Assembly (NCBI GenBank): GCA_016764115.1
Contig: JAESSM010000171.1
Location: forward strand, 1-19,521
DNA length: 19,521 nt
Origin: Bacteroidia bacterium
Lineage (GTDB): Bacteria; Bacteroidota; Bacteroidia; JAESSM01; NORP286
Reading direction: 5' to 3'
Part shown: piece by piece, positions 2,714-15,253 of the stretch
Layout: every line of letters begins with the position of its first letter
Numbering within the stretch: the first letter of the stretch is position 1
Notes under the pieces: model-generated
Told to the model about the DNA's origin: nothing
Databases searched by the model: none
Seen by the model: only the letters and a program-made list of their open reading frames with translations
Program-made: the position numbers and the translations under genes

Positions 2714-3375
2714 ATAAAAAAAGGGAACCTGTCTTGCGACTGGCTCCCTTTTCCATCTCGATCCGAAGATCGAAACGGCAAGTTTGTTTTTAAAGACTTT
2801 GATTTTTTCCATCTCGCTTCCGAAGAAACTTAATTTCCATCATCTACACCCACCAGGTATGTTTTCTTTTTGTTTCCACTCTTCCAATCTCCGAAGAAAT
2901 TTCCTGAGTCTCTTTGATCTCCCGAAGGATCTCTCAAAACTACTTGCGTAGTGAATCAACTTTCCAACAATTTTACTTTTACTGACATATCCTTAATTTC
3001 CTTTCTTGCGAATCTCTATCAAGAATACTTATTCAATAAGAGTTGGTCTTTTCCGTATCGGTCTTCTCATCAAATGTCCCGAAGCACATTATCTGAATAT
3101 TTACTTGCGTAAGCGACTGGTCTTTCCAAAACCGAACCTGTTGAAGAAAATTTTGAAAGTTTTGATCCGAAAACCGCCACTTCCTCTGTTTCCTTTTTAG
3201 GAGTTACTTCAAAAATAAATCTCTTTCGATCTTTACTTTTTTAGTCTCTATTACAACTAGGTTGTAAATTGTCTAATTGAAGTTCCGAAGAACTTTGACT
3301 AAACTTTTCAAGATTAAAAGAACTAACTCCAAGTAAGTTTCCCGATTGCTCGGGCTGCCTTTTCCCTCACTTGCT
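2714..3375 (-). ncRNA. Candidate large structured non-coding RNA (about 660 nt)
   Basis: No protein frame is credible, but the minus strand reads as a heavily folded RNA bounded by a promoter (3380-3411) and terminator (2721-2750). From the 5' end: stem 3366-3373/3330-3337 (CAAGUGAG with CUUACUUG) enclosing CCCGA-GCAA-UCGGG (3341-3354); stem 3320-3330/3200-3210 (GGAGUUA with UAACUCC, then UUC with GAA) enclosing stem 3297-3303/3240-3246 (UUUAGUC with GACUAAA), which holds two hairpins, AAGUUC-UUCG-GAACUU (3280-3295) and UUACAAC-CUA-GUUGUAA (3251-3267), forming a three-way junction. Further hairpins: UUAC-GCAA-GUAA (3101-3112), a UUCG loop at 3073-3090, GCAA at 3003-3012, ACUAC-GCAA-GUAGU (2939-2952), UUCG loops at 2916-2931, 2886-2901, 2816-2829 and an 11-bp stem at 2753-2778. 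UUCG and GCAA are stable RNA tetraloops only on this strand, and several pairs are G-U here but A-C on the other. It is not recognisable to me as tmRNA, RNase P, SRP or 6S RNA. The fold is hand-drawn. Confidence 0.75.
2721..2750 (-). terminator. Rho-independent terminator with GCAA loop, end of the structured RNA
   Basis: On the minus strand AAGGGAGCC pairs with GGUUCCCUU (9 bp, one G-U), then an A-A mismatch, then GUC-GCAA-GAC, followed by seven or more T. The G-U pair and GNRA loop exist only on the minus strand, fixing the direction. Transcript end is expected near 2714. Confidence 0.9.
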
Positions 3376-3379
3376 GGTA

Positions 3380-3411
3380 CAAACATATACCAACTGAGTA
3401 TACCTGCCAAA
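3380..3411 (-). promoter_or_regulatory. Bacteroidetes-type promoter of the structured RNA
   Basis: Minus-strand -33 TTTG (3408-3411), 20-bp spacer, and -7 box TATGTTTG (3380-3387) match the TTTG/TAnnTTTG consensus of the Bacteroidetes primary sigma factor. The expected start near 3375 lies two or three nucleotides before the first stem of the RNA (3366-3373). Confidence 0.75.
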
Positions 3412-3420
3412 CTTTTTTAG

Positions 3421-3545
3421 CGCAGTTTTCCAACAACTTCTTAACAAAAGTTATCCACATTTTGTGGAAAACATTGATGGGTAAAACTGTTGGTACTAAT
3501 GGCTTTTTTAAGCTTGGCTAGGTTATCCACATTTCAATATATCCA
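3421..3545. other. DnaA-box cluster, candidate replication origin (oriC-like)
   Basis: Two perfect TTATCCACA boxes (3451-3459 and 3523-3531) match the DnaA consensus. A near-perfect inverted box, TGTGGAAAA at 3463-3471, lies 3 bp after the first, giving a 9-3-9 inverted pair. Surrounding sequence read on the minus strand (TGTGGATAACTTTTGTTAAG, then GTTGTTGGAAAAC) resembles Flavobacteriales oriC regions. An AT-rich stretch follows at 3532-3590. Alternatives: a DnaA-regulated promoter or a DnaA-titration site. No dnaA gene is in the window. Confidence 0.5.
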
Positions 3546-3592: not shown

Positions 3593-5494
3593 ATGAAAAA
3601 TGCCCGCTTATTTTTGTCAATTCTTGCCCTGGCGGTTATGTTCTCAGGCTTCAATAAGTCATTAAATATTGACAATAAACCAAAAGCAAACAAAGAGGAT
3701 TCTTTATATGTAGTTGAAAATTATTTCAAAAGGGAATATAAAATTTCCATGCGTGATGGAATTAAGTTGTTTACTTCAGTATATGCGCCCAAAGATGACT
3801 CCAAAAGTTATCCTATTCTTTTGTTTAGGACTCCATATTCCTTAAATCCCTATGGTGAAAACAATTATAAAACTAAAATAGGTCCTTCAAAAGCATTTAT
3901 TGAGGATAAATATATTTTTGTTTTTCAAGATGTTAGAGGAAAGTTCATGTCGGAAGGAGAATTTGATGACATGCGGCCACAAATAACCAAGGAAAACAAA
4001 TACCCCATTGATGAGAGCACTGATACTTATGATTCAATTGACTGGCTTGTAAAAAATGTTCCAAATAACAATGGTAAAGTTGGCATGTGGGGTATCTCCT
4101 ATCCAGGGTTTTATGCTGCTGTTGGTGCAATAAATGCACATCCTGCTTTAAAAGCTTCTTCTCCCCAAGCACCAATTGCTGATTGGTATTGGGACGATTT
4201 TCATCATCATGGTGCGTTCTTTTTACCTCATGCTTTTAATTTTATGAGTGTATTTGGTCCACCACGACATAAGTTAACCACCAAATGGCCTGAACGGTTC
4301 AAACATCCCACACCTGATGGTTATGATTTTTTTCTCAACCATGTTGGCCCACTTAAAAATGTTACAAAAAAGTATTATGGAGATAGTATCAACATATGGA
4401 ATCAAATAGTTGAGCATCCCAATTATGATAAGTTTTGGCAGGAACGGAATTTGTTACCTCATCTACAAGAAATAAAACCTGCAATTTTAACGGTCGGTGG
4501 GTGGTTTGATGCTGAAGATCTTTATGGTCCTTTAAAGATCTATCAAAACATTGAGAAAAATAATCCCAACATCAATAATTCAATTGTAATGGGTCCGTGG
4601 AGACACGGAGGCTGGAACCGAACTGATGGTACTAAATTGGGAAATGTTTTCTTTGGAGATGATCCTTCCAGCTCAAAATACTATCAGGAAAATATTGAAC
4701 TTCCTTTTTTTAATTATCATTTAAAAGGTAAAGGTGAATTAGATCTACCTGAAGCTTACATGTTTGAAACCGGCTCCAATGTATGGAGAAAGTTTAATGA
4801 GTGGCCTCCCAAGAGTATAGAGTCCAGGAATTTATACTTGAACTCGAATGGAACTTTGTCCTTTGAAGCTCCCAAAGATCAAAATTCCTATAATGAGTTC
4901 ATAAGTAATCCTGCCAAACCAGTTCCTTTTACTGAAGCTACAGCAATTGGTATGACAAGAGAGTATATGACCGATGATCAACGATTTGCCTCCAAAAGAA
5001 CCGATGTACTGACTTATCAAACTGACATACTAGAGTGGGATATGACCCTGGCAGGGCCTTTACTGGTTAATTTAAAGATAAGTACTTCAGAAACTGCTTC
5101 AGATTGGATCGTAAAATTAATTGATGTTTATCCGGATGATTTTAAGAATTTCAAACACAATAAACGGGTTACAATGGCAGGTTATCAGCAAATGGTAAGA
5201 AGTGAAGTTATAAGAGGACGCTACCGAAATAGTTATGAGAACCCTGAGCCATTTGTCCCAAATCAAATAACTGCTGTTGATCTGGAGTTATTAGATGTAC
5301 TGCACACCTTTAAAAAAGGGCACAGAATAATGATACAAATTCAAAGTACTTGGTTTCCTTTAGTAGACCGAAACCCTCAAAAGTACGTTGACAATATCTT
5401 TAAAGCGAATGAAGAAGATTTTATAAAAGCTACTCACCGCGTTTATACTTCTGATAAGAATAGTTCTTTTATTAAGGTTGGGGTTTTGCAATGA
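3593..5494 (+). CDS. Secreted CocE/NonD-family hydrolase, alpha-amino-acid ester hydrolase-like
   Basis: 633 residues with an N-terminal signal peptide (about 1-20), so probably periplasmic or exported. It has an alpha/beta-hydrolase domain of the X-Pro dipeptidyl-peptidase S15/CocE type and a C-terminal jelly-roll domain (about 400-633). Catalytic triad seen: Ser169 in GISYPG, Asp306 in GGWFDAED, His338 in GPWRHGG; the spacing matches alpha-amino-acid ester hydrolases. Acidic residues Glu308 and Asp309 directly after the catalytic Asp, and Asp201/Asp202 in the DWYWDDFHHHGAF segment, resemble the carboxylate cluster that binds the substrate alpha-amino group in that family. Tyr82 in RTPYS is the likely oxyanion-hole residue. 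It probably hydrolyses or transfers acyl groups from amino-acid esters, amides or short peptides; the exact substrate is not predictable. It is a single-gene unit, convergent with the SpoIIE gene. Confidence 0.9.
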   Translation: MKNARLFLSILALAVMFSGFNKSLNIDNKPKANKEDSLYVVENYFKREYKISMRDGIKLFTSVYAPKDDSKSYPILLFRTPYSLNPYGENNYKTKIGPSKAFIEDKYIFVFQDVRGKFMSEGEFDDMRPQITKENKYPIDESTDTYDSIDWLVKNVPNNNGKVGMWGISYPGFYAAVGAINAHPALKASSPQAPIADWYWDDFHHHGAFFLPHAFNFMSVFGPPRHKLTTKWPERFKHPTPDGYDFFLNHVGPLKNVTKKYYGDSINIWNQIVEHPNYDKFWQERNLLPHLQEIKPAILTVGGWFDAEDLYGPLKIYQNIEKNNPNINNSIVMGPWRHGGWNRTDGTKLGNVFFGDDPSSSKYYQENIELPFFNYHLKGKGELDLPEAYMFETGSNVWRKFNEWPPKSIESRNLYLNSNGTLSFEAPKDQNSYNEFISNPAKPVPFTEATAIGMTREYMTDDQRFASKRTDVLTYQTDILEWDMTLAGPLLVNLKISTSETASDWIVKLIDVYPDDFKNFKHNKRVTMAGYQQMVRSEVIRGRYRNSYENPEPFVPNQITAVDLELLDVLHTFKKGHRIMIQIQSTWFPLVDRNPQKYVDNIFKANEEDFIKATHRVYTSDKNSSFIKVGVLQ

Positions 5495-5508
5495 GAACCT
5501 TACTTTCA

Positions 5509-5589
5509 CGTCATTGCGAGGAACGAAGTGACGTGGCAATCCTCTGCGGTTATTCAAGGCGAGAGATCGCTTCGTTCCTCGCGATGACG
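5509..5589. repeat. Interspersed repeat, family A (full inverted repeat)
   Basis: Imperfect palindrome: arms CGTCATTGCGAGGAACGAAG and CTTCGTTCCTCGCGATGACG flank a centre containing GACGTGGCAATCC. Other copies are at 15165-15253 and (one arm) 2639-2684. It lies just after the hydrolase stop codon. It is REP-like and non-coding. Confidence 0.85.
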
Positions 5590-5688: not shown

Positions 5689-5779
5689 TGTCATTCTGAT
5701 CCCGAGTGCTCGGGAGAAGAATCTTGTTTCTTGTTTATCTCTATGTGAATAGATCCTTCACTACGTTCAGGATGACAGA
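5689..5779. repeat. Interspersed repeat, family B
   Basis: Begins TGTCATTCTGATCCCGAG and ends GATCCTTCACTACGTTCAGG-ATGACA, with terminal inverted TGTCAT/ATGACA. It shares the CACTACGTTCAG-ATGACA arm with 10390-10469. A small internal hairpin is CCCGAGTGCTCGGG. Confidence 0.75.
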
Positions 5780-10389: not shown

Positions 10390-10469
10390 TGTCATCTTGA
10401 ACGTAGTGAAAGATCTTGTTACATATTGGCAATTAAGGAAATAGATTCTTCACTACGTTCAGAATGACA
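10390..10469. repeat. Interspersed repeat, family B (inverted copy)
   Basis: Arms TGTCATCTTGAACGTAGTGAA and TTCACTACGTTCAGAATGACA (nearly perfect inverted repeat) flank a 38-bp centre. Related to 5689-5779. It fills most of the gap between msrB and ybaB. Confidence 0.8.
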
Positions 10470-15155: not shown

Positions 15156-15164
15156 AGTGTATTT

Positions 15165-15253
15165 ACGTCATTGCGAGGAACGCAGTGACGTGGCAATCTC
15201 TTGCGTTAATTCCATGGAGATTGCTTCAGTCGTTCCTCCTTCGCAATGACGGT
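15165..15253. repeat. Interspersed repeat, family A (full inverted repeat)
   Basis: ACGTCATTGCGAGGAACGCA ... GACGTGGCAATCTC ... CGTTCCTCCTTCGCAATGACG. Same family and layout as 5509-5589. It sits between the giant gene's stop and its terminator. Confidence 0.85.

Follow-up and report, generated by a model that had tools for sequence, protein, structure and literature searches.

We analysed a 19,521-nt stretch of DNA from a Bacteroidia bacterium (contig JAESSM010000171.1; hereafter the window), which carries, between the genes of an S15 peptidase and a TPR protein, a segment of about 660 nt on the minus strand. On the best explanation overall, this segment very probably encodes a structured RNA that stands free and belongs to a new Bacteroidia family. 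An earlier reading of the window, made from the sequence only (the sequence-only reading), had described a large structured minus-strand RNA here, and the ends that it gave agree with ours: the transcript is predicted to start near NCAAGUGAG, where it meets the closing helix P1, and to finish at an intrinsic terminator (Table 1). Pairing probabilities are 0.97 for P1 and 0.94 for P2. As had also been stated, no credible reading frame was found in the window RNA; the longest open reading frame (ORF) lying wholly inside it has 64 aa and is on the plus strand. The place of the promoter noted in that reading is kept in most of the aligned relatives described below; by itself, the pattern is weak evidence (2 occurrences in the window against 1.19 expected).

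Table 1. Features of the RNA locus and of its upstream region (positions in the window)
Feature	Position	Strand	Basis or remark
Putative RNA gene, ~660 nt	2716..3375	-	predicted start to terminator; fold and family members
Putative promoter, -33/-7 type	3380..3411	-	TTTG-N20-TANNTTTG, i.e. TTTGG...TATATGTTTG; strict pattern in 16/24 members, looser in others
P1 5′ strand, GCAAGU	3369..3374	-	fold and family comparison
P1 3′ strand, ACUUGC	2778..2783	-	fold and family comparison
P2 5′ strand, AAAGGC	3357..3362	-	fold; second copy has AAAGAC
P2 3′ strand, GUCUUU	2792..2797	-	fold and second copy
UUCG hairpin between P1 and terminator	2754..2777	-	pairing probability 1.0
Intrinsic terminator, inner GUC-GCAA-GAC loop, U-tract	2718..2753	-	fold
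Inverted pair of 9-mer boxes, TTATCCACA/TGTGGAAAA	3451..3471		centre ~85 nt upstream of RNA start
Additional perfect TTATCCACA box	3523..3531	+	box scan

The tetraloop hairpins had been assigned to the minus strand, and the counts bear this out. Nine hairpins capped by UUCG or GNRA loops (stem of at least 4 pairs) lie on the minus strand, for which 1000 dinucleotide shuffles averaged 1.2 and never exceeded 6; the plus strand has one. CTTCGG is present in six copies (0.15 in shuffles), and 27 of the 212 pairs of the minimum free energy fold are G-U. The minus strand folded at −181.2 kcal/mol (z −5.88) and the plus strand at −127.5 kcal/mol (z −1.78; 20 shuffles each), while a repeat folding of 2716–3375 gave z −3.66 (20 shuffles) and the RNA minus its two last hairpins z −2.35 (40 shuffles). 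Folding energy supports a structured RNA, though less strongly than the first value suggests, and single 150-nt windows in its middle did no better than shuffles.

BLAST with the window RNA, the route to homologues that had been proposed, returned short chance matches only (99 relatives; the genomes of L031, L032 and L034; 395 genomes of the class); the six non-self matches that passed 1e-3 in the 395 genomes all lie inside long open frames. A single-sequence covariance model (R1, 2965–3143) matched only itself in the same 395 genomes, and two scans of viral contigs gave no match. A scan for synteny with the S15 peptidase gene gave 5 loci and led to no relative; other genes lie upstream of the closest of them (L032). 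We reached the family through the upstream palindrome formed by the inverted boxes, and then through a profile of the promoter and the RNA 5′ end. The palindrome pattern matched 28 of the 395 class genomes, and the reversed pattern 3. In the assembly of the window, which is 2.09 Mb long, 69% complete and gave no 16S rRNA match, it has one further site (C135:5533-5553), which precedes, at equal distance, a second and diverged RNA copy of ~1020 nt on the minus strand with 13 tetraloop hairpins (L082:4438-5457, G000:C135). The two copies have a common 5′ end, CAAGUGAGGGA, and a common 3′ end, GUCUUUAAAAA..ACUUG, and one P2 pair is A-U in the second copy where the window RNA has G-U.

Among the other palindrome matches, L067 (family f2) carries the same RNA, and BLAST with L067 in 13 f2 genomes found L088. 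A profile of the promoter and the first 20 nt (R2), built from the window RNA, C135, L067 and L088, matched 58 of the 395 class genomes at E ≤ 0.1. We read the loci of the better matches and of those reaching the RNA 5′ end, the remainder staying unconfirmed, and delimited 24 RNAs at both ends in 21 of the 395 genomes and in 7 families (f1, f2, f5, f10, f15, f24, f46). Six further genomes (L141, L154, L155, L158, L181, L182) were recognized by eye and add the families f4 and f40; hence the suggestion that the RNA could be lineage-specific did not hold. The 24 members leave out L129, which is doubtful yet belongs to the training set of a later profile, R3, and L130, which runs into a contig end; L136 is cut, the 3′ end of L116 was placed by hand, and the f10 set comes from one genus (g10). 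Three genomes carry two copies each, namely that of the window, G225 and G126. The RNAs measure 287–295 nt in f10, 310 nt in f46, 438–473 nt in f5, 549–623 nt in f24, 597–617 nt in f15 and 609–714 nt in f2, with 660 and 1020 nt in the window genome and ~280 nt, by eye, in L155. In f40, L158 and L162, from two genomes, have alike RNA 5′ ends (AUCAUCAAGAACGACGUACUUUGACA).

Phylum-wide, R3 matched 68 of 296 genomes at E ≤ 0.01. Strong matches extending into the RNA were confined to f15 and the window genome, and most others did not reach beyond the promoter part. Outside the class Bacteroidia no match in these genomes was confirmed: L163, L168, L172, L184 and L185 showed no RNA features by eye, and L166 and L178 turned out to be short leaders ahead of a protein gene. 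In 4 of 17 loci scanned (L160, L165, L176, L177), the promoter part gave weak matches (E 1.6e-4 to 0.0025) directly before tRNA genes, whose promoters resemble that of the RNA and whose upstream repeats are much less regular. Separately, a ~500-nt RNA-gene-like stretch was noticed behind an L19-like gene in family f54 (L157, L159 and L180; genomes G317, G358 and G136). It has the upstream repeats and the promoter in common with the RNA, and its terminator is similar; the frame that follows it in L159 and L180 is presumably isocitrate dehydrogenase-like. The stretch may be a family member that has diverged strongly, or a further new RNA.

The members have a common architecture. Apart from some exceptions, the 26 aligned promoters (the 24 members, L129 and L130) carry a −33 TTTGG-like box, a −7 TAnATTTG-like box and, farther upstream, phased 9-mers, which are TGTGGATAA in f1 and f2 and TGTTnATAA in f24 and f10. 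The scan found no strict two-box pattern in L119, L124 and L143, and the other five members outside the 16 that have it were not scored. The closing helix P1 has the consensus NCAAGU/RCUUGN and is followed by a conserved internal loop (5′ GAGRGAUAAA / 3′ AAUAACNGUA) and by P2, which occurs as GGC/GCC, GAC/GUC, UGC/GCA, GGU/ACC and others and is partly broken in some members (L114, L118). Beyond P2 there are arms differing in number, whose addition accounts for the size range of ~280 to 1020 nt, a hairpin often with CACGG, and then the terminator; every delimited member has a terminator-like 3′ end, the ends having been set by the terminator.

Covarying pairs, the other sign of a real RNA that had been asked of homologues, were found both in P1 and in two alignments. 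The first P1 pair forms in all 24 members, as G-C, A-U, U-A, C-G or U-G, and in a permutation test (mean 15.1) none of 20,000 permutations reached 24; all six P1 pairs form in 23 of the 24. By eye, P1 is GCAGUU/AACUGC in L141 (f4) and CUAAGU/GCUUAG in L155, and L158 pairs at five of six positions. From the L141 and L155 variants it follows that the inner P1 pairs also change together. Alignment A6 holds seven RNAs (six f10 RNAs from five genomes, and L127). Alignment A7 also holds seven, all of them from f24 and drawn from six genomes. Both sides have changed in 34 of 65 pairs in A6 and in 41 of 101 in A7. The covariation scores are 0.537 and 0.483, against 0.294 and 0.263 for shuffles, and were reached by 0 of 500 shuffles each; on sliding the partner strand they fall to a third or less (at most 0.176 and 0.132). 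RNAalifold, unaided, recovers P1 and P2 in A6. That these structured RNAs are real and form a new family in the class Bacteroidia is, in our view, nearly certain.

Several points weigh against this reading. One of 16 control stretches, the antisense of the S15 peptidase gene, scores z −3.94 (10 shuffles), and many members have a modest folding energy (23 members range in z from −1.05 to −7.23); because the rerun gave −3.66 and this control −3.94, folding energy is not proof of structure. In 7 of the 24 members we chose the position of the P1 3′ strand manually, which favours pairing; in the other 17 a motif containing CTTG fixed it, so that no pair but the outer one is independent of this choice. 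The P1 permutation test also ignores relatedness. In A7, RNAalifold misses P1, which varies there on one side only, and the structure is partly manual: we removed 25 of the 117 pairs given by RNAalifold and put in 9 pairs of P1 and P2. P2 pairs in only 81–82% of the cells of A6 and A7. Finally, the window RNA and C135 have a degenerate form of the 3′ motif AAUAACNGUA, which makes both copies of the window genome outliers. The overlap of the energy z-scores with that single control is also what speaks for a fold arising by chance or as a DNA repeat artefact; given the covariation, the tetraloop hairpins on one strand and the two ends conserved over families, this explanation can practically be dismissed.

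The conserved promoter, the closed scaffold, the single conserved loop core and the freely varying arms make the molecule look like a particle RNA and not like a base-pairing small RNA or a leader. We suppose that it would be strongly transcribed from a promoter type used for stable RNAs and would fold into a closed multi-arm scaffold, in which the arms vary and the conserved loop that separates P1 from P2 may be where a protein or ligand docks. It may then act in trans, as the RNA component of a particle that processes RNA or is linked to the ribosome. That it is a trans-acting ribonucleoprotein RNA, rather than a sponge or ribozyme, we hold to be an evenly balanced proposition.

The neighbouring genes offer one candidate partner. 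Elsewhere the RNA is flanked by genes for glutaminyl-tRNA synthetase, a metalloproteinase-like protein, a tyrosine recombinase, DnaK and thiolase (some identified below curated cut-offs), and in an all-against-all comparison of 30 loci the only neighbour recurring between families was PIN-PhoH, a protein that joins a nuclease-type domain to an ATPase of the helicase kind. Its gene lies divergently upstream in 7 of 7 f24 loci, upstream on the same strand in 1 of 3 f2 loci, and downstream on the same strand in f40 (L158). Both the PIN and PhoH domains of Pfam were present in all four proteins tested (L112, L117, L119, L158), and L112 and L119 match the NCBIfam PhoH2 model below its cut-off. On the other side, no locus of f1, f4, f5, f10, f15, f46 or f55 has PIN-PhoH beside it, and a single ancestral linkage with inversions would account for the three arrangements. 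PIN-PhoH would be the most likely partner, and on adjacency alone we propose it tentatively. A bolder and rather unlikely extension would give the RNA a housekeeping role throughout the class, comparable in rank to tmRNA or 6S. It would then be present in most lineages behind stable-RNA-type promoters, too diverged for BLAST and perhaps including the f54 stretch, and would work with PIN-PhoH in a particle for the quality control of RNA or ribosomes.

A sponge or decoy RNA of the CsrB or 6S sort, which titrates a protein or RNA polymerase by means of a short motif repeated many times, would suit the closed structure with its terminator. GGAAA occurs 12 times in the window RNA, above all 1000 shuffles (3.3 copies), and 8 and 7 times in C135 and L067. 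However, the other 21 members have it only 0–6 times (enrichment was computed for the window RNA), and there is no match to 6S or another Rfam family; we see this as a minority possibility. For a ribozyme or ligand-binding RNA machine, as conjectured for OLE, one can cite the internal loop around P1 and P2, conserved across families whose arms differ. Its conserved core is, however, small and without a known catalytic signature, and such a function appears unlikely.

The upstream boxes raise the question whether replication starts or DnaA binds at this locus, with the RNA as a by-product or an initiation regulator. The intergenic stretch upstream of the RNA has two perfect TTATCCACA boxes of DnaA type and one near-perfect inverted partner (3451–3531). 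The 2.09 Mb assembly has 28 perfect boxes, no other two of which lie within 1 kb of each other, and both matches to the palindrome pattern precede the two RNA copies. Nevertheless, since no lasting GC-skew sign change was seen at the G329:C1 copy (20 sampled stretches; a soft test, as skew is weak there), dnaA is on another contig, one genome carries two copies, and the repeats in f24 and f10 are TGTTnATAA and not TGTGGATAA, an origin finds no support; upstream sequence of a similar kind also precedes other genes. We consider an origin improbable; the DnaA-type boxes suggest a control linked to growth or replication. A long leader or riboswitch of the downstream gene, for which we found no supporting point, is highly improbable: over the 30 loci, neither the kind of gene that lies downstream nor its orientation is constant, and each delimited member ends in a terminator-like structure, by which its end was set.

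Some further observations concern the window at large. Its strongest local fold scores are in intergenic stretches near 5476, 10351 and 15076. An intergenic repeat around GTCATTGCGAGG...GTGACGTGGCAATC occurs at 2632–2681, 5505–5558 and 15162–15212 (two direct, one inverted; 86–90% alike), and a second type at 5716–5777 and 10408–10469 (74% alike). The TPR gene has repeats with a period of 120 nt in two blocks, 36–695 and 1611–2270.

Few classes of large bacterial RNAs are known, and several are without a function; a 2017 survey reportedly listed 224 RNA candidates. The free-standing structured RNA proposed here belongs to a well-studied bacterial class, is missing from Rfam, was missed by BLAST with the window copy, and brings a testable protein candidate. 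To find such RNAs, one may track the conserved promoter and closing helix and not the body. Rfam 15, whose scope we take to include OLE, ROOL, GOLLD, HEARO, tmRNA, RNase P, SRP, 6S and group I/II introns, gave no gathering match in the window (six weak matches fell far below the gathering scores), and the relatives, searched at 20 loci, had no match at E ≤ 0.05, in line with the claim that the RNA stands outside known families; ARAGORN found no tmRNA in the window. CsrB- and 6S-type RNAs are trans-acting, terminator-ended and multi-hairpin; the new RNA differs in having no family match and in that GGAAA is frequent in a few members only. ROOL and GOLLD are alike in being large, with many hairpins and of unknown function, but are carried by phages or prophages, whereas the new RNA has ordinary chromosomal neighbours; against phages and plasmids the window RNA gave weak matches only (E ≥ 0.06), and L113, L121 and L124 had none on plasmids.

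No description of the family was found in the open-access literature (including PMC11109978, PMC2864571, PMC9723704 and PMC12286853), subscription papers and supplements being outside its scope. OLE RNA is ~600 nt long, free-standing and ornate, like the window RNA, and its biochemical function is unknown; OLE forms a membrane ribonucleoprotein with its Oap proteins and is found in Gram-positive extremophiles, whereas the new RNA is in Bacteroidia and has no Rfam match. The raiA motif RNA (ModT) is similarly stand-alone, structured and widely distributed, but is reported from other phyla (Bacillota being named), and again the new RNA has no Rfam match. The promoter and the terminator (both by sequence), the covarying helices and the lack of a credible ORF in the window copy are the marks of a large structured bacterial noncoding RNA. 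The kind, a large structured RNA of unknown function, is already known, and the family is new by Rfam 15 and the open-access literature.
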